A stretch of 38,299 bases of DNA from a virus. Positions 6,635 to 20,974 of the stretch are shown here, piece after piece (within the stretch, counting starts at the first letter, position 1; every line of letters begins with the position of its first letter). The notes beneath the pieces were generated by a model. That model did not search any database, was not told the DNA's origin, and saw only the letters and a list, made by a program, of their open reading frames with translations. Made by a program: the position numbers and the translations under genes. The stretch is from positions 1-38,299 of IMG/VR virus record IMGVR_UViG_3300025849_000091. One strand, given 5' to 3'.

Positions 6635-7027
6635 TCAACCCTTCATGATATTTAAAAACTTGTCGAATGATACTAGGTGCTTTTTCTTCTTTTTCTTTTT
6701 CTTCTTTTTTATAGGCTCCAATAAATCACCGCTTCCGGTTTGTTGGCTACTAAAAGAATTTGCAGAACCTGGATTTCCAGGAAGTGTAGCATTACCCATA
6801 CTCTGAACATTCATGTTCGGATTAAGGTTTACCGTACCGGACTCGTTTTCTCCTATCTTGTTAGGTATTTCTTTTTCATCAGTTTTAACAAAATCTTCTA
6901 ATGTTTTAACTGGTAATTTTGATAACTCTTTAACCTCATCTGAAACATCAGAGGATTTAAGTTCTCCTTTTTTATATTGTAATGCTAATGCAAAAAATCT
7001 TCTTTGCGCTTTTGATTGAGCTGGCAT
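6635..7027 (-). CDS. Small lysine-rich protein, DUF3008-like N-terminus
   Basis: 130 aa. The N-terminus (MPAQSKAQRRFFALALQYKKGEL) resembles the small phage/bacterial family DUF3008, whose members start MPA-x-SK-x-QQ/RRF; the assignment is from memory. The middle is Asn/Gly/Ser-rich and apparently disordered. Near the C-terminus is a run of ten lysines, followed by HLVSFDKFLNIMKG, which resembles the FxxF core of the capsid-targeting motif discussed in the findings. Its ATG overlaps the stop of the upstream nucleotidyltransferase gene as TAATG, so the two are probably translationally coupled. A role in DNA binding or packaging is possible from the basic tract, but this is inference. Confidence 0.7.
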   Translation of the reverse strand: MPAQSKAQRRFFALALQYKKGELKSSDVSDEVKELSKLPVKTLEDFVKTDEKEIPNKIGENESGTVNLNPNMNVQSMGNATLPGNPGSANSFSSQQTGSGDLLEPIKKKKKKKKKKHLVSFDKFLNIMKG

Positions 7028-8355
7028 TATTTAATATTCTTTTTTAAGTAAGTTGTACAAAAGTTTAATAATTCTTTTCTTGCTGGAGCAATGTCACTCT
7101 TTTCTGTTGCAGGTCCACTTTTCCATTCTATCCAACCTTCTACTATTTCTTCTAATCCTTCTTCAAGACCACGCATAAGTTCAATATACTCTTCATTAAG
7201 TTTACTTTCATTATAACTAACAATATCAGAATATTCAATTTCATGCTCTCCGCCATCTTTATCTAATGCAAAAATAGTTTTATCTCCCCACATTGAATCA
7301 TTATCATCATTACCATTGCCAAATGCATAAATGACATACTCTTCACCATTACCTAGTTGAATCATACCATCATCCTTTTTCATTTTTTTCATTAATGACT
7401 TCTTGTTGAATTTTGCTTCATTAACGCTAAAGTCTGTAAGTGATTTTAAATTTTTCATATCTTTATTTTCTTTTATTGGTTGCATTATATCTTGTAACGG
7501 TTTATAAAACTTATGTATACTTTTTGGAGTCATTTTCTTAAAAGACTTTTCATCATCTATCTTTAAGGCATTCCTAACTTTAGATGCTGATATATTTTCT
7601 TCACCTCTTTTTATTTCAAAACCTTTAAAACTCGGATCAACACCTAACTCATCTCTGTATCTTTGTTTATTAATCATAGCACCATAAGATTTCTTTCTAT
7701 CAGTGCCGTATCCCCACATCATAGGTTCATATGCCGGTCTTGCTGCTGCAAACATTGTATCAATTGCTCCATTAGGAACTACAAAACTTGCTTCTAAAAA
7801 TGGATATTGTTTTTTCATTTTAGCAAACATAGCTTGTTGCATACTCTCATCAAATGGTCTTTTCTCTGGATCAGGCTTTCCACCTCTTACCATATAAACT
7901 ACAACAGGTAAACCATTTTCTTTATACATTTTTTCAAATACTTTAACATGACCTAATGTAAAAGGTTGAAATCTACCAACAAACATATTTACTGGCTTTT
8001 TACCCTTTTCTTTATGAGGTACATTTAGTGCTTCATTAAGTATAGTAGGTGTAGTTCTATTTTTTACTCTTTGTCCATAAGGAGATAATGCGTAAGTTAC
8101 TATACCTTCTTGGTCTTCACTAATATTAAATAGAGTTTTATTTCTACCTAACCATCTTTTATTAGCCTGGAGTTCAGTAAGAATTCTAGACATTTCTTCT
8201 TCAGTAATATGGCCGTCTGAAATAGCATCTAGAATTACACTCCTGATTCTAGCATTTGTAGATACATTCTTAGCAGGATATGCTTCTGTATATCTTCTCT
8301 TTACTACAATCTTCTTTTCATTTAAGAAATTATTTAAATCATTAATGTTATCCAT
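7027..8355 (-). CDS. NadM/NadR-like nucleotidyltransferase fused to a second module
   Basis: 442 aa. Residues about 122-265 are a cytidylyltransferase-like (HxGH) domain: GRFQPFTLGH at 127-136 is the nucleotide-binding signature with the T/HxGH pair, and ISASKVR at 255-261 matches the C-terminal ISxTxxR motif. NMN adenylyltransferases of the NadM/NadR type have this arrangement, so a role in NAD synthesis or another adenylyl/cytidylyl transfer is likely. Residues 1-120 are an uncharacterised helical region. From M300 a second module begins MKNLKSLTDFSVNEAKF; it looks like the start of an independent protein and continues as an acidic alpha/beta domain to the C-terminus. Downstream coupling to the 130-aa gene is through TAATG. 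The substrate cannot be read from the sequence. Confidence 0.85.
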   Translation of the reverse strand: MDNINDLNNFLNEKKIVVKRRYTEAYPAKNVSTNARIRSVILDAISDGHITEEEMSRILTELQANKRWLGRNKTLFNISEDQEGIVTYALSPYGQRVKNRTTPTILNEALNVPHKEKGKKPVNMFVGRFQPFTLGHVKVFEKMYKENGLPVVVYMVRGGKPDPEKRPFDESMQQAMFAKMKKQYPFLEASFVVPNGAIDTMFAAARPAYEPMMWGYGTDRKKSYGAMINKQRYRDELGVDPSFKGFEIKRGEENISASKVRNALKIDDEKSFKKMTPKSIHKFYKPLQDIMQPIKENKDMKNLKSLTDFSVNEAKFNKKSLMKKMKKDDGMIQLGNGEEYVIYAFGNGNDDNDSMWGDKTIFALDKDGGEHEIEYSDIVSYNESKLNEEYIELMRGLEEGLEEIVEGWIEWKSGPATEKSDIAPARKELLNFCTTYLKKNIK

Positions 8356-8366
8356 ACCTTATATAT

Positions 8367-11300
8367 TTACTTTGCCATTTTAAACCTGTTAGTCTCTGGA
8401 TCAAAATCTGCATGTTTTAGGTTTGCTGCATAAACTGCATTAGGCCTTGGTATGTTTGTACCATCTGGACCTTTACCTTTTGCAAACTTGAAACCAGGAT
8501 TTGGTTGAGGTTTCATTAATGATGCATTTGTTACACCATCAGTTATATGTACACCACCATCTTTCTTTGATGTAGATACATTTATATTACCATAAGACTG
8601 TTCTTCTAAATCTCCGTTATGAATTTCTGCAACTAAAAGGCATGCTTTACAATGTCCAGTTAATGCATCTTTCATATATGGTGGAAACGGGCCTCTGCCT
8701 TTTTTCTCCCATTCTTTTAGAGTATCATCTGCCCACTGTTCTGGTGATCTGTCACCGTACTTAAGTGGTAATTTATCTTTATCTATAATTCCATTTTCTA
8801 CTGCCCAATCTTCTTGTTTATCTAATTCTTCATTACCTTTTTTAATTGTATCAGTTGTAGTAGGCTCAGATAAAGTACCCATGAAATTATTATGATTATC
8901 TGCTAAAGAATCTAATCTATTTCCAGTTTCCTTATTATAAAATTCTGATTCACCTATTTTATTTTTTAACGCAGATGCAGCACCACCATCTTTCTTTACA
9001 GATATACCACCCATAGTTTCAAGATTAACTGCTAACCCTAATCCTTGCATTGCAACTTTACTTGCATAGTCAGGATCATCAGGATCTAAGTCAACAGCAC
9101 CACCTAAACATATAACATCAGCCACAGGGAAATTTTCACCAGCAGGAAGTTCAGTTCGGTAACCTCTTTTGTTCATTGACATATAAGCAAAAGATTCAGC
9201 TAAGTCAGCACTACCTTTTCTTATAGATTCAACATCATCCATTTTTCTTAGTACTTCAATAGTAGCATTATCAAAATCTTCAACAGATTCAATACCACTT
9301 AATTTTTCAATATCTGCTAAAACTTCTTTTTCTTTAGGTGTAGGGTTATCTCCAATTAAGTCTTTCATTTTATCATGAATTACTTTAGGGTATTCCTTTT
9401 GTATTTTTTCTGAACGTTCCTTTTGTGGTAAGTCATTTAAACCTGGAACAGTTTCAATCATCTCTACCTCATTTAGCTTTTCCCACTTTCCTAAATTTTT
9501 ATTGTGTCTATCAATTGCTCTATTTGTTCTATTAACTAATCTTCCTACCTCTTTATCATTTAAATCAGGATTTTGTTGTTTAAATGCTTCGGTTAATCTT
9601 TCTGTTAATTTTTCTTGGTCTGGTTTTTTGAGTCTTTTAATTTTAGTTGACCCCATTGTAATTTCTTCAATTTCACCACTCTCATTTTTAGTAACCTTAA
9701 CTTCTGGTTTATATGTTTTACCGCCAGATATTTTATTAGGATTAATATCTTTTCCAGCAATCTTTGGTTTAATTCCACCGTCAACTGTAGATGCTGAAGT
9801 AATCTCTAATCCTAAGTCAGTTAATTCCTTTACAGCAGCACCATCCTTATCTGAAAGATCCATAACTTTTTCTCTACCACCTTGCCTGAATTCTCCAGGG
9901 GTGTTTGATGCAAAATATATTTTTAATTTACCTTTGGAATCACTAAGTCTTGCATACTTACCTACCATTTCAGCTTCATCCTTTGAAAGCTTTTTCCCAT
10001 TTAATACTTTTTCAAATCCACCTTCAAACTTTTCTCTATCTTCTGCTGGAGAAAATGCAATTCTATCAAAGTCCTTTTTTATCTCTTCTACTCTTTTTGT
10101 TGTAAACTTTTTATTTAAAGAATCAGATAAACCTAATTCAGTTTCTTCAGTAGGTTCTTTATCACCAACTATTTCTTTTGCCTTTTTATATGCTGGTGTA
10201 TCTTTATCATAACCAAGTGCAGATGAAACTTTTACTTGTCTTCCTGTTTCTGGATTTTTAAATTTTTGATCTTCAGCATTAGCTTCTATAACTACTTTAC
10301 CTAAATTAATAAATTCATTGTAATTAAGAACTCTTTCTTCTACAACTAATTCTTCTAGATCTTTATGATTAACTTCTTCATCTACTTTATTATTTAAGTA
10401 TTCTCCGAATGTTGTAAATTCTTTAGAAATTTCTTTATTAATACTATCACTTATTTTAGAAACCATTTTATTAAAATCATCAATTACAGATGCTGTCATT
10501 ACTGCACCTATTCTTTTAGGATTTCTTTTCTTCCTTAAAGATCCTAACATTATTTTATATAAGTTCTTTAATGAGTCTGATTTTTGTAAAATTTCTTTAG
10601 TCCTACTATTTTTAATTAAATCTAAATTTACATCAAACTCAGGACCTTTTGCAAAATCAGCTTTTTGAATATCTAATTTTTTTAAATCAGTACCTCTCTT
10701 AGTTGTATAATCATTAAATAAGTTGTTTACTAATTCAATGTATCTTTCTTGAGGTGTGTTCATTAGCAATTCACCTGCTCTTAAACCTCTTTCTTCTATA
10801 AAAGCTAAAATATCTAATAAAAGAATTTCATTAATATCAGCAGGAGCTCTTCTTAAATCTACAGGCTCCTTATCTTTCATTAACATCTGAGTATAAGGAT
10901 CAATCATTTTAGCTGTAAATGTTTGATTAGTACCTGGTCTGTAAAATTTAAAGATAATAGAATCAATAGGTTTATCTAAATCATTTTGTAAAGTAGTTTT
11001 ATCGATAGTAGGATTTAAACAACCGATTAAATATTTTGCAAAAGAACTTGTACCAAATACTTCCATTTGGTCTTCTCTTGGTGTAGAAAGAAATTCTCTA
11101 ATCTTTCTTTTTTGTTCTTCTTTTAAATATCCGCTGAATATAGGAATAAGTGGAGTAACTTGAAATGCAGAAGCCCAGTCTCTTAATACTCTAGGATCTT
11201 CAATTACTTTAGCAATTTTACCTTTAGAGTTCTTTACTTGGATATGAGTTAATATTAAATTATTATCAGGAAGATTATCATATTTAATAGCTCCTGGTTG

Positions 11301-11594
11301 ATTATGAACAAAGTACTGAAAACAAAATCTCCAATGATCTGGTAAATCTTGTATATGCCCTTCTGTTTGTTTAAGTATGTATTGGATTGCCGGTTCATAA
11401 TACATCATTAGTGTTCGGTCCACTATATTGATAGGCATTTTGCTATTGCCTTTAAAAAATTGTATTTGGTCTCCATGCTTCTCAAAAGCAAAAGACGATC
11501 CGGATAGTTTTTCGGTCACTAGCAAATAATCTTTAAATAGATCATTTACGAATTGTTGCCCTACTTCTTTATATATGTTTGTTAACTCTTTCAT
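8367..11594 (-). CDS. Giant protein with divergent ligase-like nucleotidyltransferase N-domain
   Basis: 1075 aa. The N-terminal ~240 residues read as a degenerate RNA/DNA-ligase-type nucleotidyltransferase. Motif I is EKLSG (K29, with Ser where the family has Asp in KxDG), FFKGNSK follows at 46-52, a motif III-like RFCFQYF lies at 89-95, motif IV-like DSIIFKF at 211-217 (usual Glu/Gly missing), and motif V-like AKMIDP at 228-233. The lysines are kept, the acidic residues are not, so activity is uncertain. A middle region rich in Lys/Glu includes LNYNEFINLGKVVIEANAE. The C-terminal ~250 residues contain ENFPVADVICLGGAVDLDPDD and a GHCKAC pair that I could not assign. Expressed after a terminator-like hairpin and a TATATAA box. 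It may be a packaged or ejected phage protein, by inference from neighbours. Confidence 0.8.
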   Translation of the reverse strand: MKELTNIYKEVGQQFVNDLFKDYLLVTEKLSGSSFAFEKHGDQIQFFKGNSKMPINIVDRTLMMYYEPAIQYILKQTEGHIQDLPDHWRFCFQYFVHNQPGAIKYDNLPDNNLILTHIQVKNSKGKIAKVIEDPRVLRDWASAFQVTPLIPIFSGYLKEEQKRKIREFLSTPREDQMEVFGTSSFAKYLIGCLNPTIDKTTLQNDLDKPIDSIIFKFYRPGTNQTFTAKMIDPYTQMLMKDKEPVDLRRAPADINEILLLDILAFIEERGLRAGELLMNTPQERYIELVNNLFNDYTTKRGTDLKKLDIQKADFAKGPEFDVNLDLIKNSRTKEILQKSDSLKNLYKIMLGSLRKKRNPKRIGAVMTASVIDDFNKMVSKISDSINKEISKEFTTFGEYLNNKVDEEVNHKDLEELVVEERVLNYNEFINLGKVVIEANAEDQKFKNPETGRQVKVSSALGYDKDTPAYKKAKEIVGDKEPTEETELGLSDSLNKKFTTKRVEEIKKDFDRIAFSPAEDREKFEGGFEKVLNGKKLSKDEAEMVGKYARLSDSKGKLKIYFASNTPGEFRQGGREKVMDLSDKDGAAVKELTDLGLEITSASTVDGGIKPKIAGKDINPNKISGGKTYKPEVKVTKNESGEIEEITMGSTKIKRLKKPDQEKLTERLTEAFKQQNPDLNDKEVGRLVNRTNRAIDRHNKNLGKWEKLNEVEMIETVPGLNDLPQKERSEKIQKEYPKVIHDKMKDLIGDNPTPKEKEVLADIEKLSGIESVEDFDNATIEVLRKMDDVESIRKGSADLAESFAYMSMNKRGYRTELPAGENFPVADVICLGGAVDLDPDDPDYASKVAMQGLGLAVNLETMGGISVKKDGGAASALKNKIGESEFYNKETGNRLDSLADNHNNFMGTLSEPTTTDTIKKGNEELDKQEDWAVENGIIDKDKLPLKYGDRSPEQWADDTLKEWEKKGRGPFPPYMKDALTGHCKACLLVAEIHNGDLEEQSYGNINVSTSKKDGGVHITDGVTNASLMKPQPNPGFKFAKGKGPDGTNIPRPNAVYAANLKHADFDPETNRFKMAK

Positions 11595-11616
11595 TATTAG
11601 TTTTTAGTTATACCTT

Positions 11617-11623
11617 TTATATA
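11617..11623 (-). promoter_or_regulatory. TATATAA box upstream of the 1075-aa gene
   Basis: Minus strand reads CTAATATATAAAAGG, 22 nt before the ATG at 11594 and just after the terminator hairpin. It is one of six similarly placed copies and is compared with the T4 late promoter TATAAATA; the promoter role is inferred. Confidence 0.45.
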
Positions 11624-11647
11624 TTAGATTTAAAGAATGTTTAAAAC

Positions 11648-11673
11648 AAAAAAGATGAGTCTTTTAACTCACC
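11648..11673 (-). terminator. Candidate Rho-independent terminator
   Basis: On the minus strand a 7-bp stem (GGTGAGT / ACTCATC, one G-T pair) with a 6-nt loop TAAAAG is followed directly by six T residues. It lies between the 106-aa gene and the 1075-aa gene and is the clearest terminator in the window. The downstream gene has its own TATATAA box, which fits a transcription-unit boundary here. Confidence 0.7.
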
Positions 11674-11716
11674 TTTAATACACTTATATTATTTTCCTAT
11701 TATTATTACATATTAA

Positions 11717-12037
11717 TTATGATACGTCCATATAATCACCGTGGTCACATACTATACCTTTTTTGGATACTTGTTTACAGATGTTATCTAATTCACCGGT
11801 ATCATAATACATCGGGAAGCTATCTTTAATACCTAATGACTTTAAAAGTTTTTCAGTATCTGCATAACCAATCTTAGATCTTTTATTTACATTAGCAGTT
11901 TTAGCTACATCATATAAAGATGTTCCATAAAATCTACCTCTATCAGTATAAACAAAATTGATTCCTTTTATGTTAAAAGATTTACCACTACGATCTTTGT
12001 ATCTGGTGGCTTCATTAAGTGGTTTTACATATTTCAT
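11717..12037 (-). CDS. Hypothetical 106-aa protein
   Basis: 106 aa, not recognised. It starts MKYVKPLNEATRYKDRSGK, which fits a short version of the capsid-targeting-like N-terminus (MK, then LNE as a possible [LI]-x-E cleavage site). The rest is a mixed alpha/beta sequence with GTSLYDVAKTA and two cysteines near the C-terminus, in ICKQ and IVCDHGD. It lies in the block of candidate head-packaged proteins. It is preceded by a TATATAA box and followed by a strong hairpin terminator, so it may be a single-gene unit. No function is proposed. Confidence 0.65.
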   Translation of the reverse strand: MKYVKPLNEATRYKDRSGKSFNIKGINFVYTDRGRFYGTSLYDVAKTANVNKRSKIGYADTEKLLKSLGIKDSFPMYYDTGELDNICKQVSKKGIVCDHGDYMDVS

Positions 12038-12051
12038 ATCTATTTGTTTTA

Positions 12052-12058
12052 TTATATA
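12052..12058 (-). promoter_or_regulatory. TATATAA box upstream of the 106-aa gene
   Basis: Minus strand reads TTTATATAATAAAACAAATAG, 14 nt before the ATG at 12037. Placement and flanking A/C-rich sequence match the copies near 19557 and 20992. The role is inferred. Confidence 0.4.
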
Positions 12059-12112
12059 AATATAATCAATTTATTTGGGATAAAAAAATTATTTCACTAA
12101 AGTTATTAACAA

Positions 12113-13384
12113 TTATCTACCAAATTTAATTATACCCATTAATTGATTAATTGCAGCAAAGGTGCCAGTCAGCTTATAGATCTTACCTTTATATTTAAAT
12201 ACAATACCTTCAGTTGGAAATATTGATTCTATACCGCCAATACGACTTAGCCTTGCAAGTTCAGCTTCAACCTTTTTAATTTGTTCTACCCCACCTGTCT
12301 TTTTAATCTTACTTGCTTGAGTTTCAATTTCTTTTCTTAGTCTTTGTGCTTCACCAGATGGATTAGCAGCTAAGAAGTTAGAAGCATTCTTCATAATGAT
12401 AGAACCGAGCTCTAAAAATAAATCTTCAAAAGGTCTAATGTTTTCTTTATACTTTTTGGCAACATCCTCTTTATCAAACTTTTTAACTAATGCAGCTTCT
12501 TTAGGCCCAACTTGTTTTGCTAAAGATCTCATGTTTAAACTCTTCTTGTCGCCGTATGCCCATCTTTTAAGTAAACCTTCTTTAACATCTTGAGATAATG
12601 TTGGAAATTCTTTATCTATTAATTCTCTCCACCACATTTCATGGTATCTTGAAACTTCATCACCGTCGTTTAAGCCATATCTTTTTTCTAGAGCATTAAC
12701 TTGGTTAATAAACTTTTTCTTATTTGCAGTAAAATCTAAATCTCTTTGTAATTGAATTACTTTAGGAGGTATAATTTTAAATGTTTTACCAATATCAGAT
12801 TTTACCTTTTGAAGTATACTTGTTATTTCTTTGGCAGGTTTATTGTTTGTACCTATGATATTACCTTTACCATCCGTTTCTTTTATTCCATGAAATTGTA
12901 TAACATCAGTATCATAATGAATAACATTTGGATTTAATGAATAGATTAATTCCATATTCATAAAATCTTTTCCATTCTTAAAATACTTTTCTTGATCTGC
13001 TGGTGAAAGCTTTCTTAATAGCTTATCTAAATCCCTAGCAGCAAAGATATAAGTATCTTCTACTAATTTTGATGCATGGCCTGTAAACATACCAACAATT
13101 CCGTTAAGATCTATTGGGTTTGCCATTTGTCCTTTATTTCTAGCAAATTTTACTTTACCATCCTGCATAGTTACAAATAGGTTTTGCCCATCAGTCTTTT
13201 CAGTAGGATCTTCTTCAAAGTTTAATTGACCTCTAAGCCCAGCATCAACCATTGCTTTGAAATCTCCAAAGGTTAAATCTTTATCATCAAATGGATGCTG
13301 CATATGACCAGCTGCACCACCTTCAAACAAAAATGGCTGACTTTTGTCAGTCAGCCACTCTTCAAACAGTTTTATGTGTTTCAT
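12113..13384 (-). CDS. RNA/DNA-ligase-superfamily nucleotidyltransferase
   Basis: 423 aa. Covalent nucleotidyltransferase motifs appear in order: EKTDG with K63 as the candidate nucleotidylated lysine (KxDG, 63-66), ARNKGQ at 81-86 resembling the motif after motif I in RNA ligases, MNMELI at 142-147 (motif III-like), EGIVFKY starting at E392 (motif IV) and YKL at 403-405 (motif V). The 245-residue spacing between motifs III and IV is long and implies an insertion. The sequence also resembles a phage family I remember as DUF6267, which is uncertain. The N-terminus MKHIKLFEEWLTD is a capsid-targeting-like motif, followed by a GGAAGHMQHPFDD segment. It lies directly downstream of the acidic repeat gene (14-bp gap). 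Likely joins or caps nucleic acid ends; the substrate is unknown. Confidence 0.75.
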   Translation of the reverse strand: MKHIKLFEEWLTDKSQPFLFEGGAAGHMQHPFDDKDLTFGDFKAMVDAGLRGQLNFEEDPTEKTDGQNLFVTMQDGKVKFARNKGQMANPIDLNGIVGMFTGHASKLVEDTYIFAARDLDKLLRKLSPADQEKYFKNGKDFMNMELIYSLNPNVIHYDTDVIQFHGIKETDGKGNIIGTNNKPAKEITSILQKVKSDIGKTFKIIPPKVIQLQRDLDFTANKKKFINQVNALEKRYGLNDGDEVSRYHEMWWRELIDKEFPTLSQDVKEGLLKRWAYGDKKSLNMRSLAKQVGPKEAALVKKFDKEDVAKKYKENIRPFEDLFLELGSIIMKNASNFLAANPSGEAQRLRKEIETQASKIKKTGGVEQIKKVEAELARLSRIGGIESIFPTEGIVFKYKGKIYKLTGTFAAINQLMGIIKFGR

Positions 13385-13398
13385 TTAGTTTAGTTTTA

Positions 13399-15183
13399 TT
13401 ATGATCCCATAGTAGATTGTAAAGCTCCAACCATTGCTCCATAGTCTTCACCATACTTATCAATTAAACCATCAGCAGTTTCAGTTGCTTTAGTTTCATC
13501 AAAGTCATCTCCGAATGCATCTTTTAACATTTTCATTGCATATTCTTTGAATTGGTCAGCAGATTTAATTTCAGCTTCATTTACTTTACCTAATTTATTA
13601 TTGGCAAGCTTTCTGAATTTTTCAGCAATTGAATCATCAGGTAATACTTCTTCTTCTTCCTTTACAATTTCAGTACCATCAGCTTTATCATCTGCTTCAC
13701 CTTTAACTACATCAGTAATTTTTTGATCAGGAGTAATTAGTTCTTTACCTTTACCTTCAATAGATTTAGGCTTACCCATATCCATCATATCTCCAGCAAT
13801 ACCTGCAGCAGTTTCTGGTCCATCACCTTTAATTACAGGAATAGCTATTCCATCATCCCCAGCTTCTTCATCTTTAATTTCATCACCTTCAACTTTAGTA
13901 ATTACTTCACCTACAGCTTCTTCAACAGATTCATCCTTTTCGTCTTCATCTTCGAAATCTTCACCGTCGTGAGTTTTAGATTTATCACCTTTATTTCCAC
14001 CTAGTACAACATCATCGTACTTTTCATTTGCAGATTCATCTTTTTCATCATCATCTTCAAAATCTTCGCCATCATGTGTTTTAGATTTATCACCTTTATT
14101 TCCACCTAGTACAACATCATCGTACTTTTCATTTGCAGATTCGTCTTTCTTATCATCTTCATCCTCATCTTCAAAATCTTCGCCATCATGTGTTTTAGAT
14201 TTATCGCCTTTATCTCCACCGAATACAACTCTATCATATGCTTCATTAACAAATGTTGAAAAAGACATTATTTTAGATTCGTTCTTTTCAGCATCTTCCT
14301 CTTCTTCTTTATCGTATTCAACATCTTTCTTTAAAGCATCGATTTGTTTATCATCAGATTTAACAGCTCCTTTATAATGGTCTGCTTTTTCTTTATCATC
14401 TTCAGAATCAACTTTCTTATCGCCTTTATCTTCTAATTCATCACCTTTCTTTTCATCATCTTTACCTTCTTCTTCATCATCTTCATTGACTTTTGCTTCA
14501 GCAAGAGGATCAGCAGACGCTGCTACAGGAACAGCATAATCTTCTGGCTCTTCATCATCATCATGATAAGAAATGTTTTTATTAATAGTTTCTTCTTTTT
14601 CTTTAATGAAATCTTCGAAAGCCATAATTCTTCTAGTAGCTTTTGGAGTTTCTTCTTCTTCTGAAGCTACATCAACACCGTCCTCATCTTCAACCTCATC
14701 GGCTTCAGCTGGAACTTCTGCTGTAATTTCTTGTTCATCAGAAACTTCTTCACCTTCTTTATCTTCTAAAGATTTAGTATCACCAATTGCATTAACCTCA
14801 TCTTCTATTTCTTTAGCTTTTCCAGATAATTCTTTTACTTCATCTTCAGCAACCTCAGAATCAGAATCAACAACTTCAGCGTCGCCTTCTTTATCTTCAG
14901 TACCTTCTAGTGATTTTGCTTTACCTTTGGCATTCATTTCATCTTCAATATCTTCGGCTCTATCTTCTTCGATTTCATCCTCAGATATATCGTTACTTTT
15001 TGCAATTGTCTTAGACATTGCTTCGAGTTTTGAAAGAAGATCTTTCTCCTTTTTTAACTCTTCTATACTGTCAAAACCAATCTTTTTGATCAATTCATCA
15101 ACAGCTTCTTTTGTTACTTTTGCTGACTCAGTGATCGGTTGATCTTTTGCAGTCATTGCAGAAAACTTTTTGATTGACTTCAT
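13399..15183 (-). CDS. Acidic repeat protein, candidate prohead core/internal protein
   Basis: 594 aa, extremely rich in Asp, Glu and Lys. The N-terminus MKSIKKFSAMTAKDQPITESA resembles a capsid-targeting sequence ending in I-T-E. Two internal copies follow, IMAFEDFIKEKEE and IMSFSTFVNEAYD. The second opens three tandem repeats of about 35-38 residues of the type NEKYDDVVLGGNKGDKSKT then HDGEDFEDEDEKDES. The C-terminal ~60 residues (SADQFKEYAMKMLKDAFGDDF onward) look like a compact helical domain. Acidic, processed proteins of this kind form the scaffold core or internal proteins of T4-type heads. That role is inferred; alternatives include a disordered host-interaction protein. It has its own TATATAA box upstream. 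Confidence 0.7.
   Translation of the reverse strand: MKSIKKFSAMTAKDQPITESAKVTKEAVDELIKKIGFDSIEELKKEKDLLSKLEAMSKTIAKSNDISEDEIEEDRAEDIEDEMNAKGKAKSLEGTEDKEGDAEVVDSDSEVAEDEVKELSGKAKEIEDEVNAIGDTKSLEDKEGEEVSDEQEITAEVPAEADEVEDEDGVDVASEEEETPKATRRIMAFEDFIKEKEETINKNISYHDDDEEPEDYAVPVAASADPLAEAKVNEDDEEEGKDDEKKGDELEDKGDKKVDSEDDKEKADHYKGAVKSDDKQIDALKKDVEYDKEEEEDAEKNESKIMSFSTFVNEAYDRVVFGGDKGDKSKTHDGEDFEDEDEDDKKDESANEKYDDVVLGGNKGDKSKTHDGEDFEDDDEKDESANEKYDDVVLGGNKGDKSKTHDGEDFEDEDEKDESVEEAVGEVITKVEGDEIKDEEAGDDGIAIPVIKGDGPETAAGIAGDMMDMGKPKSIEGKGKELITPDQKITDVVKGEADDKADGTEIVKEEEEVLPDDSIAEKFRKLANNKLGKVNEAEIKSADQFKEYAMKMLKDAFGDDFDETKATETADGLIDKYGEDYGAMVGALQSTMGS
13952..14243 (-). repeat. Three tandem coding repeats in the acidic protein
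   Basis: Repeat units of about 105 and 114 bp, seen from the spacing of the shared GTTTTAGATTTATC block at 13973, 14078 and 14192 on the plus strand. Copies one and two are nearly identical; the third (N-terminal in the protein) is more diverged and begins directly at the end of an internal targeting-like motif. Confidence 0.85.
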
Positions 15184-15203
15184 TTTAGTTATTTTTATTT
15201 TTT

Positions 15204-15210
15204 TTATATA
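15204..15210 (-). promoter_or_regulatory. TATATAA box upstream of the acidic core-like gene
   Basis: Minus strand reads GGATATATAAAAAAAATAAAA, 20 nt before the ATG at 15183 and just downstream of the uvsW stop. It is a member of the recurrent box set; promoter role inferred. Confidence 0.45.
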
Positions 15211-15218
15211 TCCATGTC

Positions 15219-15246
15219 TTAGTGAAAAGATATTCTATATTAGAAT
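15219..15246 (-). terminator. Weak hairpin at the end of uvsW
   Basis: Minus strand has ATTCT-AATAT-AGAAT followed by ATCTTTTC; the stem overlaps the uvsW stop codon. The 5-bp A/T-rich stem and short T run make it a weak terminator at best, but it coincides with the switch to a new promoter-like box. Confidence 0.25.
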
Positions 15247-16745
15247 CTTATGTTCTGAACTTCGAATGGAAACTTTTCTTCTTTATATATTGTTCGCCTA
15301 GCAATACCGTGGCGGTAGATATAATTAACCCAATCATGGTCTTCGGCTTTATATCTAAAATCATCTATAAAATCATAGATTTTTACAACATCTTTCGATG
15401 CATGCTTTCTTAATCCTCTACCAATACTTTGTCTGATAATTACTTCAGATTTAAAACTTTCGGTAAAAAAGATATTATGTATATTTTTAATTGAAATACC
15501 AGTTGAAAAGGTACCATAAGATGCTACAATAATAACATCATCATTTTTTTCCATTCTGCTTTTAAACTCTTCTCTTATATCTACGTTAACAGAGCCGTCT
15601 ACATAGTAAACCTTCTTGTCTGTTATATGCCTTAATTTATTATATAGTTTTTCACCGTATGCAATCTTATGAAATAGTACTAATGAATTAGATGTAGATT
15701 TTTTAATTACTTGACAAACAAAATCTAATCTCTTTTCGCTTTGATTTATAAAATTTTGTTCTAATCCAAATAATCTTTGTCTATCTTGTGGATTTTTAGA
15801 TAAGAATGAAAATGATTCCTTTTGTTCATCTGTTGCATAATCCATATGAAGTTGCATAACTTTACAACTGGCAATAAAACCTTCTTGTTGTAATTGATTT
15901 GCTTTAACTTGAGTAACCAATGGGCCCATGGCAGACATTAAACTTAATCTATTAACAGTTCCTTTCTTAGGTATGGTTCCACTTAAACCAAATCTAAAAT
16001 CACAATGCCAACACTTATCCATAATCTTTTGAATAGAATTTGCTTTTGCTTTATGAGTTTCATCTACAAATACAGCATCAAATTGGCTAAAGTATTCCTC
16101 GTCCTTTTTAACTAAAGATTGATAAGTACCAATAACTAGATTAGAACTTTTTCTTATTTTTACACCGGCATAAATTTGTTGAGTCTTTAAAGGAACTCCG
16201 CATTTATTATATTCATCAAAGTCACCAGTAGCCTGTAAGACTAGATTTACATTAGGGACAATCATTAATATCTTTTTCTTATTTAGCTTGTCCATAAGAT
16301 AAGCAACTACCATAAAAGATATTAGTGTTTTACCAGCAGATGTTGCTAATTCCGCTAAACACCTTCTATACTTTAATATTTTAAAAGCTGCATCTATTTG
16401 GTATTCTCTAGGTTTAAATTCTGGTTGCTTTTTAAATATTTTAGTAACCCATTTCCTAAACTCGTCTTCTTTGATTTCAGTATCAAATATATTGGTTATA
16501 TTATTTAAGGTAACAGGAAAGTCATAATCTTTACAGATATCTAATATTTCTTTCCATAGACCTGCAGGTATTTTATTTCTTTTTACAAATGATACATTAC
16601 CATCCCATACTCTTTTTTTAACTAAAGGGTGAAAGCGCCAACCTTCAATCTTTTTAGTTAAACTACTTTTTAGTTGTTCATACTCTAATTCAGTACAAGC
16701 ATCAATAACTAAAAACTTTTTATTTTCCGAGAGGGATAATTCCAT
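15240..16745 (-). CDS. uvsW: UvsW-type superfamily 2 helicase
   Basis: 501 aa, against about 503 for T4 UvsW. The N-terminal ~100 residues form the accessory DNA-binding domain (EGWRFHPLVKKRVWDGNVSF). Helicase motifs follow: KPREYQIDAA (Q-like region, 111-120), Walker A TSAGKT at 135-140, DETH at 228-231, SGT at 255-257 and motif VI QSIGRGLRK at 439-447. UvsW unwinds R-loops and branched recombination intermediates and drives the switch from origin-dependent to recombination-dependent replication. Its ATG overlaps the uvsY stop as TAATG, so the pair is co-translated, and the T4 neighbourhood of uvsY with uvsW is kept. All catalytic motifs look intact. Confidence 0.95.
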   Translation of the reverse strand: MELSLSENKKFLVIDACTELEYEQLKSSLTKKIEGWRFHPLVKKRVWDGNVSFVKRNKIPAGLWKEILDICKDYDFPVTLNNITNIFDTEIKEDEFRKWVTKIFKKQPEFKPREYQIDAAFKILKYRRCLAELATSAGKTLISFMVVAYLMDKLNKKKILMIVPNVNLVLQATGDFDEYNKCGVPLKTQQIYAGVKIRKSSNLVIGTYQSLVKKDEEYFSQFDAVFVDETHKAKANSIQKIMDKCWHCDFRFGLSGTIPKKGTVNRLSLMSAMGPLVTQVKANQLQQEGFIASCKVMQLHMDYATDEQKESFSFLSKNPQDRQRLFGLEQNFINQSEKRLDFVCQVIKKSTSNSLVLFHKIAYGEKLYNKLRHITDKKVYYVDGSVNVDIREEFKSRMEKNDDVIIVASYGTFSTGISIKNIHNIFFTESFKSEVIIRQSIGRGLRKHASKDVVKIYDFIDDFRYKAEDHDWVNYIYRHGIARRTIYKEEKFPFEVQNIRF

Positions 16746-17194
16746 TAGTATTCTTTATCGTCTAAACTTATTCTATTACGAATAGCAAATGCTAAGTTAT
16801 CACAAGTCTTTATGCATTCCTGGTAATAGTCCATATGAGATTGTAGCATTTCCATTTGTGTTCTTAAATGAGATAAGTCAGCTTTAATAAAAGCAACCTT
16901 TTCACCACTTGTTAATTTAACATCATAATCAATTGAATATTCTCTATACTTGATTTTATAGTATCTGTCATATGCACCTTGTCTTTTTTGTTTTGTAGTT
17001 TTAAAATCAGTAATTTTATCCAATAGGATTTGTCTATAAGATAACATATTTACTTGGCACTCGGATAAATTGCGAACTTCTTTTAGTAAACCAACCAAGT
17101 GGCTTATCTTTTCTTTCCAATCATCTCTATCTTTAGCTAATCTTTTTGCTAATTCTTCATTAGCCTCACCTGTAGCCATGTCATTATACTCCAT
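16745..17194 (-). CDS. uvsY: UvsY-like recombination mediator
   Basis: 149 aa, close to T4 UvsY (137 aa). The central and C-terminal region aligns by eye with UvsY: a basic YDRYYKIKYREYSIDYD stretch, then a charged strand/turn and helices (DLSHLRTQMEMLQSHMDYY, then IKTCDNLAFAIRNRI matching the SRGFAIKHI end of T4). UvsY loads the recombinase UvsX onto gp32-coated DNA. The identification rests on this pattern plus position immediately before uvsW. Two starts are possible, ATG at 17194 or M6 (MATGEANEELAKRL). The first is directly adjacent to the upstream stop (TAAATG) and is preferred. UvsX itself is not in the window. Confidence 0.85.
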   Translation of the reverse strand: MEYNDMATGEANEELAKRLAKDRDDWKEKISHLVGLLKEVRNLSECQVNMLSYRQILLDKITDFKTTKQKRQGAYDRYYKIKYREYSIDYDVKLTSGEKVAFIKADLSHLRTQMEMLQSHMDYYQECIKTCDNLAFAIRNRISLDDKEY

Positions 17195-17416
17195 TTAAAA
17201 TATACCTTTATCTTTATTAATCTTTTTAAAACCCTTTACTTTAGGCTGAAACTTCTTTTTAGGTGCTGGTATAGAAAAATTAGTTTTAACTTCATCTAAT
17301 TCAGATTTACCAAATGTAGAAAAAAGTTTTAGTCTTTTACTATTACTTTCTAAATCTTTATAAAAGTCATCTATTTCTTCATTCACAAAATTATTATAAT
17401 TTTTTAAACTCATCAT
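17195..17416 (-). CDS. Small basic protein with capsid-targeting-like N-terminus
   Basis: 73 aa, not recognised. It begins MMSLKNYNNFVNEEIDDFY, matching the pattern MK/L-x-x-[FY]-x-x-[FL]-x-[NE]-E. A basic C-terminus follows (APKKKFQPKVKGFKKINKDK), and no membrane segment is visible. It starts inside the primase stop (ATGA overlap; the second Met at 17413 is an alternative) and ends directly before uvsY, so it is co-expressed with replication genes. A small basic packaged DNA-binding protein would fit, but this is inference from the motif and charge. Confidence 0.65.
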   Translation of the reverse strand: MMSLKNYNNFVNEEIDDFYKDLESNSKRLKLFSTFGKSELDEVKTNFSIPAPKKKFQPKVKGFKKINKDKGIF

Positions 17417-18486
17417 ATAAAAATAATATCTAATGAATCCTTTGTAAAATATTTATCCAGGTCACCTAAGCACCCAGATCTATTACTGTATTCCCATTTA
17501 ACTAAATCATTTAAATCTTTAACCTTTCTTGATGGAATGTCAAAATCCTTTAAAAACTTATCCCACATAAATACAGTTTGACCACCCTTAAGTTTTTCAA
17601 TCATTCTTGTTTTACCTTCTAAATCATTATCAAAGAAATATCTTGCTGTAGGTATTTCATTAAATTCAATAATTTGTTTTTTAACTCCAGTTAAACCAAT
17701 AGAGTTATTCATAAACATTGCATCAATAGGACCTTCAAATATTGAAAAATCTCGAGACATATCAACAGTTAAGATTCCAAATAACATTGATATCTTATTT
17801 AGGTTATCTAATTCTTCTTCGGTAACTTTTAATGGTAATTTTAATCTGTCATAAATTCTTTCTATATTCCAAGTTTTATATTTAGGACCACCACTACCAC
17901 CTAAGTCTCTAGTTTGGAATCCTAATATTTTACCTTCAGGTGTTAAATTAAAAACATATAGTTCTCTACGCCTTGGGTCAAAACCAAACCTTTCAGTTTT
18001 ATGATGGAGAAGCCTACTCTTTAAATAAGGATATGCTTGGTATGTTAAAGTATTAATTGGATATACATTAAAACCTAAAGCTATTTCATCAAAAGTTAAT
18101 GCTAATTCTTTTGCTTTATCAAAAAGATAAAAATCTAAATTTTCTCCTAATGAAAAATGTTTACGATTTTCCTTAATATAATTAATAACATTAATTCTAT
18201 CATCGCCTTCGAAGTTTTCATTATGTTCTGCTAAGAATACATCTAAGGAAGCATGAGCTGAACAATTATAACAATGAAAGTATAAATCATTCCAATAAAT
18301 ATTTCCTCTCTTTTTTCTTGGTGTATCATGAGAATCACCACAGTAAGGGCATGCAAAATTTAACCTACCTTTACTCTCCAATATTCTTCTCTTCTCTGGA
18401 TGAGTATGATTAGTATGAAGAACTCGGACTACCTTATCGATAATCCGAGCTTTCATTTCAGAAGATATTATTACTTCCTCTGCCAT
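17413..18486 (-). CDS. 61: DNA primase, T4 gp61-like
   Basis: 357 aa (T4 gp61 is 342). An N-terminal zinc-binding domain has CPYC at C46/C49 and CYNC at C72/C75. A catalytic primase core contains the TOPRIM acidic residues: IFEGPIDAMF with E251, and FFDNDLEGK with D286/D288. RELYVFNLTPEGKILGFQTRDL is typical of DnaG-type primases. It synthesises RNA primers for lagging-strand replication together with the gp41 helicase, which is not in the window. It follows gene 32 with only 5 bp between and overlaps the 73-aa gene, so it is part of the same operon. Confidence 0.92.
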   Translation of the reverse strand: MAEEVIISSEMKARIIDKVVRVLHTNHTHPEKRRILESKGRLNFACPYCGDSHDTPRKKRGNIYWNDLYFHCYNCSAHASLDVFLAEHNENFEGDDRINVINYIKENRKHFSLGENLDFYLFDKAKELALTFDEIALGFNVYPINTLTYQAYPYLKSRLLHHKTERFGFDPRRRELYVFNLTPEGKILGFQTRDLGGSGGPKYKTWNIERIYDRLKLPLKVTEEELDNLNKISMLFGILTVDMSRDFSIFEGPIDAMFMNNSIGLTGVKKQIIEFNEIPTARYFFDNDLEGKTRMIEKLKGGQTVFMWDKFLKDFDIPSRKVKDLNDLVKWEYSNRSGCLGDLDKYFTKDSLDIIFI

Positions 18487-18491
18487 ACTTA

Positions 18492-19415
18492 TTAAAGATC
18501 TAAACCATTAATGAAATCATCAAAGTCATCTTTCTTTTCTTCACCTTTTACAGGTTCAGCCTTAGGAGTTTCCTTTGTTTCAGTTGTTGCTTTAGTTGCA
18601 GCAGCTTCAGTAGCTTGTGTATTTACTGGTGCTGGTTTTGATCTTGTGATGTTTTGAATTGAATCACCTGGTGATGTGAATTGAGATAATACATTCATTA
18701 CCTTTCCTCTTACTATATCATCCCATGCTTTATAACCCCATGTTGATAAATCTGGTGCAGTACCTAACAACTCTAAAATTGCCTTACGGCTTTCATCACT
18801 GTTTGTAACCGCTTCACCTTCAATTGTCATTGGAGATTTATTTCCGTGGAATTTACTAGAATCATAATTTGGAAAACCACCTTTCTTTGAAATTACTAAT
18901 TCAAAATTCTTGCCTTCAAAAGGATCGAATACTTGAGTAGGTTCATCAAATTGTGGATTCAGTTCTTCATCAATTTTAGTTTTGATTTTATAACCAAACT
19001 TCATGATTTTAACCTGCCCTTCAAGATCTCTGTTTTGTGGATCTTTTATGATTTGTACCAATGCATAGAATACTTCTCTACGCTTTAAACCTTCTGACAT
19101 CTTTTTGTCTACAGCAGATTCAGAGTTTCTTAGTTTAAAGAACATATCCTGTACAGGACATTTTTCTCCAACCGTTGATGGTGAATCAGCATAAAAGCCG
19201 TTTCCCTCTCTGTCTTCTAACCAGTAGACATACTTTCTTTCAAATGGTTTTCTTGGGTTTTTAGCATTAGGTAGAAACCTAATTAAAGAACGGTAAGTTC
19301 CGTCCTGTCCTTGATCTGGTTTAGGTGAATAAAGATCACTCCCTGCGGAAGATGGTCTTTCACCAGTGTCTAAATCTTTTACACTTACGTTAAAAATGTC
19401 GAATTCATTTGCCAT
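18492..19415 (-). CDS. 32: Single-stranded DNA-binding protein, T4 gp32-like
   Basis: 307 aa (T4 gp32 is 301). Three expected parts are visible: an N-terminal domain, a core where KRREVFYALVQIIKDPQNRD (from residue 111) aligns with the T4 KRKTSYWANILVVKDP region and FEGKNFELVISKKGGFPNYD with [20 protein letters not shown], and a C-terminal acidic tail ending DDFDDFINGLDL. It coats single-stranded DNA and coordinates replication, recombination and repair proteins. The core normally binds zinc through three Cys and a His. Here only C86 remains (EKCPVQDM), so the zinc site appears lost. The 167-bp leader carries repeats that may be an autoregulatory operator. The ATG at 19415 is preceded by AAGG, one of the few Shine-Dalgarno-like sequences here. 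Confidence 0.92.
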   Translation of the reverse strand: MANEFDIFNVSVKDLDTGERPSSAGSDLYSPKPDQGQDGTYRSLIRFLPNAKNPRKPFERKYVYWLEDREGNGFYADSPSTVGEKCPVQDMFFKLRNSESAVDKKMSEGLKRREVFYALVQIIKDPQNRDLEGQVKIMKFGYKIKTKIDEELNPQFDEPTQVFDPFEGKNFELVISKKGGFPNYDSSKFHGNKSPMTIEGEAVTNSDESRKAILELLGTAPDLSTWGYKAWDDIVRGKVMNVLSQFTSPGDSIQNITRSKPAPVNTQATEAAATKATTETKETPKAEPVKGEEKKDDFDDFINGLDL

Positions 19416-19582
19416 GTTAATTGCCTTTTTTTTGTTATTATTAATTTATGATAACAAACTCCGTATCTAAACGCCTTTTAATTTTTTATTGCCTATTTAC
19501 TTCGCCTTGTTATCGCCTTTTAAAAAGTACCAATACTTTATTGATTCCTTTGTTTATTATATATCCCCTAAGTCAGTTTGTT
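19416..19582 (-). promoter_or_regulatory. Gene 32 leader with hairpin and AAAGGC repeats
   Basis: The longest intergenic region. On the minus strand it has a TATATAA box (19557-19563), then a hairpin AAAGTA-TTGG-TACTTT (19524-19539). About 100 nt of A-rich, largely unstructured sequence follows with five AGGC elements whose GGC lies at 19515-19517, 19504-19506, 19491-19493, 19473-19475 and 19423-19425. Four are in AAGGC context, and the last (AAAAGGC) is 10 nt before the ATG. T4 gp32 represses its own mRNA by nucleating on a structured element and spreading over an unstructured A/U-rich leader; this layout is similar. The regulatory role is inferred. Confidence 0.5.
19557..19563 (-). promoter_or_regulatory. 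TATATAA box before the gene 32 leader
   Basis: Minus strand reads GGGATATATAATAAACAAAGG, 141 nt upstream of the gene 32 start. Same core as the other boxes but at a much longer distance, which would give gene 32 a long 5' leader. Promoter role inferred. Confidence 0.4.
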
Positions 19583-19867
19583 TCAGACTATTTTAACATT
19601 TTTATCTATTATTGCAGTTACATCACGTTCTCTTATACTTAATACTGTTTCTCCTTTATATTTAAATTCACTACCAGCTAAATCATGAAAAAGTATTTTA
19701 ATTCCTATTTTAAAATCTTTATCTTCTACCCCATCTCCTACTCCAGTGATTGTACCTGAATACGGAGGTGCAAACATCCCTTCTTTTTTTAGTAAAATTA
19801 TACTGCCTTGCTTCTCTGGTTGCTCATCTTTTTTTAAAAATATTCTATTTCCTAAAGGTTTTATCAT
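19583..19867 (-). CDS. GroES-like co-chaperonin
   Basis: 94 aa, the standard length for the family. The N-terminus MIKPLGNRIFLKKDE matches the GroES opening (IRPLxDRVxVK). A flexible loop follows with SIILL in the place of the GroEL-contacting IVL tripeptide, then YSGTITGVGDG, KIGIKILFHDLAGSEFKYKGE and ERDVTAII, matching the GroES body and end. T4 uses gp31, a GroES analogue, to fold its major capsid protein with host GroEL. This gene likely plays that part or supplements the host protein, but it is closer to canonical GroES than to gp31. It lies between the RuvC-like gene and gene 32. Confidence 0.88.
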   Translation of the reverse strand: MIKPLGNRIFLKKDEQPEKQGSIILLKKEGMFAPPYSGTITGVGDGVEDKDFKIGIKILFHDLAGSEFKYKGETVLSIRERDVTAIIDKNVKIV

Positions 19868-19952
19868 TTTATTTTAATTTTTTTTATAGAAAGCTGAAAC
19901 AATGTTAACATGTTGCAATATAATTTTTAACTATTCAGAGTAAGAAAAGTAT

Positions 19953-20612
19953 CTATTTGTTAGCCTTCAGGACTTTAAGTATAAAGTAGGCATCAACGAT
20001 GTCATCGATAGGTTTAGGTATTTTAATGCTGAAGTCTTTTCCTTGAGTCCATTTCCAAAGTTTAGTGCTCCTTAAGTTCTTATCATTAAGGACATCATCT
20101 TGGAATGCTTTAGCCATATAATGTTTATTTGCATTTCCTTTCCCAGCAAGTTTCTTAACATGAGATGGTTGAAAGACAGATAAATTTTCTATAGAATACT
20201 TATCTATTAATTCTTTTCTTAAAAAAGTATTGTACTGAATAATGTCTATAAATGAATTACCCTTGGAGCCATAAGAAAATCCTTCTAATGCAACTGCTAC
20301 CTTATCACTTTCAAATAAGGTTGAAAATATATTAACCATAAGTGAGCTAATATTTCCTGCATCCTCTAACTTCTGTCTCTCTCTAGGTAAAAACTCTTTA
20401 CTTGTAACTTCTCTATTATAAGGAAATCCTAATAAAGCATTATCATCCATTAATTCTTTGTGTACACTGAATGCTTTAGGTATTTTTCTACCTTCTTCAT
20501 CCCATATACGATTTCCGTAATTAAAAAAAGTTATAAAGTGATATTTGCCATCGGCTGTTTCAACACAGGCACCAGGGCTATTTAATGAAAAGTCAATTCC
20601 TATGTGAATCAT
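19953..20612 (-). CDS. RuvC-like Holliday junction resolvase/RNase H-fold nuclease
   Basis: 219 aa. The RNase H-fold acidic residues fall at expected places: D7 in HIGIDFSLNSPG, E110 in VALEGFSYGSKG, and D203/D204 with D207 in PIDDIVDAYF. A lysine-rich KKLAGKGNANKHYMAKAF segment matches the RuvC-like region before the last acidic motif. RuvC-type enzymes cut four-way junctions and resolve branched DNA before packaging. T4 uses unrelated endonuclease VII (gp49) for this, so here the RuvC-like protein is a plausible replacement. It starts 5 bp after the glycine-zipper gene. Specificity for junctions is inferred from the fold. Confidence 0.82.
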   Translation of the reverse strand: MIHIGIDFSLNSPGACVETADGKYHFITFFNYGNRIWDEEGRKIPKAFSVHKELMDDNALLGFPYNREVTSKEFLPRERQKLEDAGNISSLMVNIFSTLFESDKVAVALEGFSYGSKGNSFIDIIQYNTFLRKELIDKYSIENLSVFQPSHVKKLAGKGNANKHYMAKAFQDDVLNDKNLRSTKLWKWTQGKDFSIKIPKPIDDIVDAYFILKVLKANK

Positions 20613-20617
20613 TCTAA

Positions 20618-20974
20618 TTATATTCTCTTGCCGATAACTGCACCTAGCGCAGCACCTACAAGACGTGAGGTTAATAAATCATAAAGAGCACCTTTAGTAA
20701 CACCTAATACTTTAGCTACTGCTTTACCTATAGTTTTTCCTAATGCAAACCCAGTAAGTCCACCAAATATACTACCAAGCAATCCTTCATTGATTATCTC
20801 CTCAACACAATCTTCTAAATTCTTACCTTCTTTTTGAGCTTCAAGAATTCTATCTACTGCTAAATCAATAGCAGCATCCTGCTCTTCTGTTAGATCATGA
20901 GATTCATTTAATAAATCTTCTATGTTTAAAGAATCTTCTTTATTCTCAATTAGGTAATCTTTAAATGTTTTCAT
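20618..20974 (-). CDS. Small protein with targeting-like N-terminus and glycine-zipper membrane segment
   Basis: 118 aa. The N-terminus MKTFKDYLIE is almost the same as the capsid-targeting sequence I recall for T4 internal proteins (MKTYQEFIAE), and LIE is a candidate prohead-protease site. An acidic helical stretch follows to about residue 60. Residues 64-91 and 104-116 are glycine-zipper-like hydrophobic segments (GLLGSIFGGLTGFALGKTIG; RLVGAALGAVIGKRI), typical of membrane-inserting helices. It is preceded by a TATATAA box and followed by the RuvC-like gene. A head-packaged, membrane-active protein acting at DNA entry is one reading; a holin-like protein is another. No family was recognised. 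Confidence 0.7.
   Translation of the reverse strand: MKTFKDYLIENKEDSLNIEDLLNESHDLTEEQDAAIDLAVDRILEAQKEGKNLEDCVEEIINEGLLGSIFGGLTGFALGKTIGKAVAKVLGVTKGALYDLLTSRLVGAALGAVIGKRI

Follow-up and report, generated by a model that had tools for sequence, protein, structure and literature searches.

The DNA analysed here is a virus record of 38,299 bases (IMG/VR record IMGVR_UViG_3300025849_000091, whose whole length is hereafter called the window), a fragment of a phage with its main genes on the minus strand. Between positions 6635 and 20974 it encodes a row of proteins, two of them ligase-like and one NMNAT-like, several of which start with a similar short peptide, referred to below as the tag (Table 1). 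A preliminary description of the window had compared this peptide with the capsid-targeting signal of the phage T4 internal proteins, and the strings that it listed were found at the genes concerned, all on the minus strand; the T4 record itself reads MKTYQEFIAE/A, the slash marking the cut. The window also encodes a UvsW helicase, a UvsY-like protein, a gp61-type primase, a gp32-type single-strand binding protein, a GroES-like protein, a RuvC-like nuclease and a tail tube protein, a gene set that identifies the phage as T4-related. Among named phage records, the nearest one found was that of the 462-kb uncultured phage LR756500, in which UvsW shows 58% identity to the window protein and the ligase-like and NMNAT-like genes lie in the same neighbourhood.

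Table 1. Tagged proteins of the window, their neighbours and mapped features (aa, amino acids)
Feature	Gene	Position	Strand	Basis or remark
N-terminal tag MKTFKDYLIE, 118-aa protein	20618-20974	20945..20974	-	profile 11.8
N-terminal tag MMSLKNYNNFVNE, 73-aa protein	17195-17416	17378..17416	-	profile 12.4, best of 26
594-aa acidic protein		13399..15183	-	internal sites IMAFEDFIKE 14599-14628, IMSFSTFVNE 14242-14271
N-terminal tag MKHIKLFEEWLTD, 423-aa ligase-like protein	12113-13384	13346..13384	-	profile 11.0
Putative cleavage site FLFE/GG, residues 18-21, 423-aa ligase-like protein	12113-13384	13322..13333	-	family conservation
106-aa protein, decayed N-terminal tag MKYVKPLNEA		11717..12037	-	family comparison
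1075-aa second ligase-like protein, KLSG at motif-I position		8367..11594	-	ligase-like by motif, by eye
N-terminal tag MDNINDLNNFLNE, NMNAT-like protein	7027-8355	8317..8355	-	profile 7.9
NMNAT/cytidylyltransferase-like domain, residues 124-223	7027-8355	7687..7986	-	Pfam, PHROG
130-aa DUF3008-like protein		6635..7027	-	arm copy 6725-6850 (residues 60-101); C-terminal LVSFDKFLNI 6647-6676

Among the called window proteins of at least 60 aa (n = 25), three carried the pattern [FYWIL]xx[FYW][LIVM]xE within the first 16 residues, whereas shuffling the N-termini 500 times gave 0.10 on average and 2 at most; in LR756500 the same pattern was found in 27 of 623 proteins, against 4.19 in shuffles (maximum 10). 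A profile trained solely on 33 LR756500 N-termini and then applied out of sample to the window scored four of its 26 N-termini at 7.9 or higher, the next best reaching 0.08. All four tags lie at the extreme N-terminus, within the first 13 residues. Only three of the 2029 internal stretches of the window, overlapping one another, reached a score of 8 and none reached 10, a level exceeded by the three best N-termini. The shared N-terminal motif described for the 118-aa, 73-aa and ligase-like proteins was therefore borne out, far above chance in both the window and LR756500. For the NMNAT-like protein the preliminary description had cited an internal copy, MKNLKSLTDFSVNE, which scores 3.7; the tag lies instead at the N-terminus of that protein. 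The proposed N-terminal copy of the acidic protein (MKSIKKFSAM...PITE) scored −7.0, which is background.

The recurring tag positions (an aromatic residue, Phe, Ile/Leu/Val and Glu) are those mapped in T4 IPIII, where residues 4 and 7 are reported to serve targeting and residues 8 and 10 processing, an Asp at position 10 stopping processing while still allowing targeting (PMC9026906). The 118-aa and 73-aa proteins match at all of these positions; the NMNAT-like protein has a Leu at the first, and the ligase-like protein a Trp and a final Asp.

Conservation within families supports these assignments. The 118-aa family, counted by eye, starts with MKTFKD[YF] in 31 of the 32 distinct N-termini printed (of 47), and [YF]xxF[VI]xE is kept in 29 of 30 distinct N-termini of the 73-aa family, also counted by eye. 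For the 106-aa protein the weak copy named earlier is background in the window itself (−3.3), yet six of the seven distinct N-termini of its family read MKNFNEF[IV][NT]E and the seventh is identical to that of the window, so that by family comparison MKYVKPLNEA is a decayed form of the canonical tag. We noticed by eye that the 118-aa protein has a hydrophobic, glycine-zipper-like C-terminus that could insert in membranes, and that the matching place in LR756500 holds a 283-aa protein with a glycine-rich hydrophobic stretch.

The family of the 423-aa ligase-like protein was represented by 78 open reading frames (ORFs) with 27 distinct N-termini, some of them nearly identical, the start being taken as the Met before Lys or Arg nearest to the body. 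The tag was present in all 27, compared with a mean of 1.07 and a maximum of 5 in 500 shuffles. Tag sequence and spacing vary, and in all 27 the body is preceded by [ILVF]xE followed by GG. Since the 13 tags that end in Asp are also followed by this second site, cutting would be expected there. The ligase-like tag of the window ends in LTD, with Asp in place of Glu, and the bare tripeptide [ILV]xE is weakly enriched, as detailed below. Predicted ligase identity is motif-based, with K63, D65, G66, E392 G393 and K404 L405 T406 G407 invariant in 18 sequences; it was not confirmed by Pfam or PDB sequences, neither of which gave a ligase match, nor by a weak structural model (pLDDT 65), for which Foldseek ranked T4 RNA ligase 2 first at E = 0.7. 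The NMNAT-like domain was recognized by Pfam (CTP_transf_like, E = 1.6e-7, 32 bits against a cut-off of 21) and PHROG (cytidyltransferase, E = 2.4e-14) and contains the GRFQPF..GH motif of a predicted NMNAT. All 31 NMNAT-like ORFs with the architecture of the window protein are tagged (13 distinct N-termini), and the tag accompanies the KRRYTE-type domain in 42 of 45 ORFs.

The same peptide precedes many unrelated bodies in related phages. A loose tag pattern matched 33 N-termini of LR756500; many of these resemble MKYIKEYEEFINE, and a few are probably chance matches. A search of IMG/VR with an exact degenerate DNA version of the tag retrieved 31 stretches, several of them from one 429-kb contig sharing identical proteins with LR756500, and a second pattern retrieved at least 120; in records without annotation, gene calls followed a simple ATG rule and not a gene finder. 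We obtained 122 distinct tagged proteins, and 121 bodies fell into 75 clusters once the first 20 residues had been removed. A larger set of 293 pattern-tagged proteins gave 98 body clusters, 10 of whose representatives were judged to be chance matches, so that the pattern-tagged sets include some of these. The usual form of the tag is MK[HY]IK[LT][FY]EEF[IVL]NE. In one run of stretch L021 (L021:5881-13537) 14 of 16 genes are tagged, out of 14 of 28 over the whole stretch. Among the cargo that could be named are leucine-rich repeat proteins, a VWA-type metallopeptidase, GNAT, polynucleotide-kinase 3'-phosphatase and NMNAT families, while ATP-grasp matches were weak and below the cut-off; 16 of 20 singly scanned tagged proteins had no Pfam family at E 0.001. 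A tblastn search with a tag peptide yielded four records of uncultured huge phages, at E values of 3-7, and was not informative. Within one stretch at L037:2440-6584, and in L038, tagged genes of 211-232 aa recur in near-identical form, and by eye the genes of the L021 run start without an obvious Shine-Dalgarno sequence, as would be expected for Bacteroidota-type hosts.

Because the Phe, Glu and hydrophobic positions were set by the search pattern, the evidence from these sets lies in the other positions and in the residue that follows the tag. Among 90 proteins (the 98 cluster representatives less the 10 judged chance, plus 2 added) this residue is Ser, Ala or Gly in 45, compared with 333 of 1800 over the next 20 positions (p = 6e-11) and with 65 of 214 after other [ILV]xE sites in the bodies (p = 0.001). 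LR756500 encodes both a gp21-type S77 protease and a gp23-type capsid protein. Among 16 chosen related records, the five longest (at least 126 kb) have the protease and four of these also the capsid protein, while neither was seen in the 11 shorter ones. An LYE/[DN]A site occurs at residue 44 of all five capsid proteins examined. The LR756500 prohead protease (L006:26725-28623) lies within a 632-aa protein that also has a long C-terminal region and perhaps unites protease and scaffold.

Published mass spectrometry of cyanophages places some tagged proteins in virions. In S-CREM2 (PMC10665884), 6 of 219 proteins are tagged by a pattern fixed beforehand and 4 of these are among the 52 virion proteins, a presence of 4/6 for tagged and 48/213 for untagged proteins (p = 0.029); a relaxed pattern gave 5/9 (p = 0.037). 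The four are a SAM hydrolase, an APH-like kinase, an NMNAT-like enzyme and a 78-aa protein. The cytidylyltransferase of S-SZBM1, reported from the virion (PMC9146016), starts with MRFRQFIIEA, and the NMNAT of S-SCSM1, marked as a virion protein in its record, with MKSFLQFLKEA. When the three proteomes were pooled, 6 of 13 tagged and 84 of 496 untagged proteins were in virions (p = 0.016), and for the two whole proteomes the values were 5 of 10 and 77 of 427 (p = 0.024). A strict class, M[KR]...E, defined after seeing S-CREM2, gave 6/8 against 84/501 (p = 0.00055). All nine cyanophage NMNAT-like proteins examined, six of them picked from 531 hit records, start with [FY]xxF[IL]xEA. The Cas9-like virion protein ORF12 of S-CREM2 (L130:7704-10313, same source) carries a tag-like LRFASFMAE at residues 17-25, outside the pattern.

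The motif is most likely a T4-type capsid-targeting propeptide that serves as a modular address label; it would direct proteins to the prohead core and be removed by the S77 protease. We estimate the probability that tagged proteins are packaged in this phage at about 0.8; scaffold binding, cleavage and delivery would follow the T4 precedent, injection in particular being modelled on T4. The T4-type signal of the preliminary description is accordingly supported by the T4-mapped positions, by the protease in relatives and by the cyanophage virion data. Newly made tagged proteins would bind the prohead scaffold core through the short N-terminal segment and be enclosed as the shell assembles. The gp21-type protease would then cut after [ILVF]-x-E, either where the tag ends or at a second site close behind, leaving mature cargo in the head to enter the host with the DNA. 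In this phage the cargo would include the proteins of 118 and 73 aa, probably that of 106 aa, the ligase-like nucleotidyltransferase and the NMNAT-like enzyme. Both enzymes would probably serve in the early repair of NAD or of nucleic-acid ends damaged by host defence.

Several observations weigh against this reading or narrow it. The bare tripeptide [ILV]xE is barely enriched near the N-terminus (11 in the window and 172 in LR756500 within the first 16 residues, compared with 6.4 and 155) and was dropped as evidence. No S77 protease was seen in the window, an incomplete fragment, so that the search for a gp21-type protease succeeded in LR756500 and 5 of 16 related records and not in the window itself. 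The virion data come from outside this phage and its close relatives, the pooled p-values are modest, and S-CREM2, S-SZBM1 and S-SCSM1 were picked since their papers report NMNAT-like enzymes in virions, S-CBWM1, for which the same is reported, having been left out. In S-SZBM1, with matches checked by eye against annotated starts, the canonically tagged ORF191 and ORF192 are missing from the virion table (PMC9146016) and a fourth, weaker match was likewise undetected there, leaving one of four tagged proteins detected. In S-SCSM1, covered by 72 genes in the one stretch that proved to hold the NMNAT, two weaker matches are not virion proteins (one of three), and its authors caution that virion detection may include carry-over (PMC9602691). 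Within the phage group, NMNAT fused behind the second ligase-like protein has an N-terminal tag in none of 25 ORFs, so that NMNAT packaging is not general; the notion that all NMNATs of the group enter the head was rejected on this ground. The 1075-aa ligase-like protein of the window, for which no informative Pfam or PHROG family was found, likewise has no N-terminal tag by the profile. The earlier suggestion that nucleotidyltransferase-type enzymes are delivered with the DNA is hence supported for the 423-aa protein and the window NMNAT but not in general.

The tag could instead serve mainly to build or size the prohead core, tagged proteins being structural and few of them reaching the host. 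T4 IPIII is reported to affect head assembly (PMC9026906), and by composition the acidic 594-aa protein resembles core material; since the bodies of the cargo are unrelated to one another and some belong to enzyme-type families (NMNAT, VWA-metallopeptidase, GNAT, polynucleotide-kinase 3'-phosphatase and, weakly, ATP-grasp), we judge this unlikely as the chief role. A short amphipathic segment could serve many purposes, and the motif might send proteins to a replication compartment, a membrane or a host partner while merely resembling the T4 signal. We give this very little weight, given the match at the four positions mapped in T4 (PMC9026906), the cut-site signature after the tag, the gp21-type protease in relatives and the tagged proteins reported from cyanophage virions.

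That the N-termini share DNA and not a selected peptide, through duplication, a translation-start element or a recombination site, might be suspected from the similarity of tags at the DNA level within one genome and from tagged genes that look like tandem duplicates (L037, L038). Thirteen tags of L021, however, use different codons in 241 of the 721 codon pairs that encode the same residue, and identity falls from 79% within the tag to 44% over the 25 bases upstream, which argues that selection acts on the peptide. As the bodies are also unrelated, and ligase homologues start with the same motif in different sequences, this explanation, already disfavoured by the synonymous change, is hardly credible.

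As a capsid-targeting propeptide, the tag most resembles those of T4 IPI, IPII and IPIII, with a short N-terminal segment, an aromatic residue at position 4, Phe 7, Ile/Leu/Val 8 and Glu 10 (PMC9026906) before unrelated mature bodies. It differs from them in being usually three residues longer in front, in the far larger cargo per genome (LR756500), in carrying enzymes, in some Asp-ended tags with a second site behind and in one C-terminal form. T4 Alt, an ADP-ribosyltransferase for which head packaging and gp21 cleavage behind ITE-6 (N-terminal) and LTE-619 (C-terminal) are reported (PMC5694885), is likewise an enzyme carried in the head, with another activity and another tag sequence. The cyanophage NMNAT-like proteins of S-CREM2, S-SZBM1 and S-SCSM1 share the domain family and combine virion location by mass spectrometry with a T4-type tag, whereas the window protein additionally contains a KRRYTE domain, and its tag is weaker and longer-spaced. 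In SPN3US, phiKZ and P1, N-terminal propeptides are also described as removed by a prohead protease and the cargo as ejected; in contrast, most of the SPN3US propeptides described exceed 100 residues and do not form a shared tag of 10-13 residues.

T-even internal-protein genes have already been found by their signal sequence (PMC12373910), and NAD/ADP-ribose enzymes have been proposed to be packaged in phage heads (PMC9503650). The tag strings were absent from the literature searched, which excluded subscription papers and preprints, so that novelty is unproven. In the same literature, capsid targeting tied to cyanophages led to one T4 review, DUF3008 was not mentioned, and related terms were not found in a 2026 jumbo-phage review (PMC13282480). 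The mechanism is known from T4; within the literature searched, its scale, its cargo and the phage group appear new.

The 130-aa DUF3008-like protein points to the head by a route that the preliminary description did not name. Over 42 aa (residues 60-101) it shares 60% identity with residues 44-85 of the capsid protein of LR756500 (E = 1e-14), so that this copy of the capsid-protein arm begins at the putative capsid-protein cut; it is followed by a lysine run and a tag-like end. The LR756500 counterpart carries the same arm copy (57% over 30 aa), and 27 ORFs among the fetched loci match the arm pattern. The C-terminal LVSFDKFLNI has a profile score of 1.2, yet a similar end is kept in homologues. 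The DUF3008 match reaches 23.4 bits, under the Pfam cut-off of 24 (E = 6.7e-5), and the protein shares 37% identity over 59 aa with S-SCSM1 protein 93 (E = 2e-8), a DUF3008-like virion protein that ends in RTFKEFLEYIE. In cyanophage virions the arm, identified by comparison with the S-CREM2 capsid protein, occurs on S-CREM2 ORF160 and S-SCSM1 protein 97. The arm copy, the tag-like end and the occurrence of the arm and the DUF3008-like part on separate cyanophage virion proteins support a predicted head location for the window protein.

These results could be joined in a wider reading, for and against which we see about equally much: that a widespread uncultured T4-related group uses the T4 head-entry signal as a general delivery address, with some 30 unrelated effectors in the one whole genome examined, sometimes in tandem arrays; that a ligase and an NMNAT enter together with the DNA to restore NAD or mend broken RNA/DNA ahead of any phage gene expression; and that a copy of the mature capsid-protein arm, as a second address, marks at least one further head protein. 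If the tag is such an address, the N-terminus alone helps to predict proteins co-delivered with the DNA, many of unknown function, even far from T4. It would also yield a candidate list of injected counter-defence proteins, explain the NMNAT-like enzymes in cyanophage virions and provide new tags with which proteins could be packaged into phage heads. The resulting rule is testable: a tagged protein should be in the head and cut after [ILVF]-x-E.

The internal copies of the motif fared less well. Over the whole window the regular expression found 10 sites against 3.4 in shuffles with a maximum of 8, and a site inside a tail-type protein scored 8.8 with the same profile, so that internal copies are suggestive only. 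Those listed earlier, not clearly above background with scores from 1.2 to 8.0, include LNYNEFINLG (8.0), IMAFEDFIKE (6.7) and IMSFSTFVNE (4.5); taken singly, they are indistinguishable from background. The latter two, from the acidic protein, fall within the range of unrelated internal sites. By its composition and these tag-like sites, the 594-aa protein may nevertheless be a prohead-core protein of the T4 gp67/gp22 type. In the translation of a 1007-aa tail-type protein (window 24974-27997), a C-terminal Hint/intein-like stretch (CFVAGTEIALANG...VHN) was read by eye.

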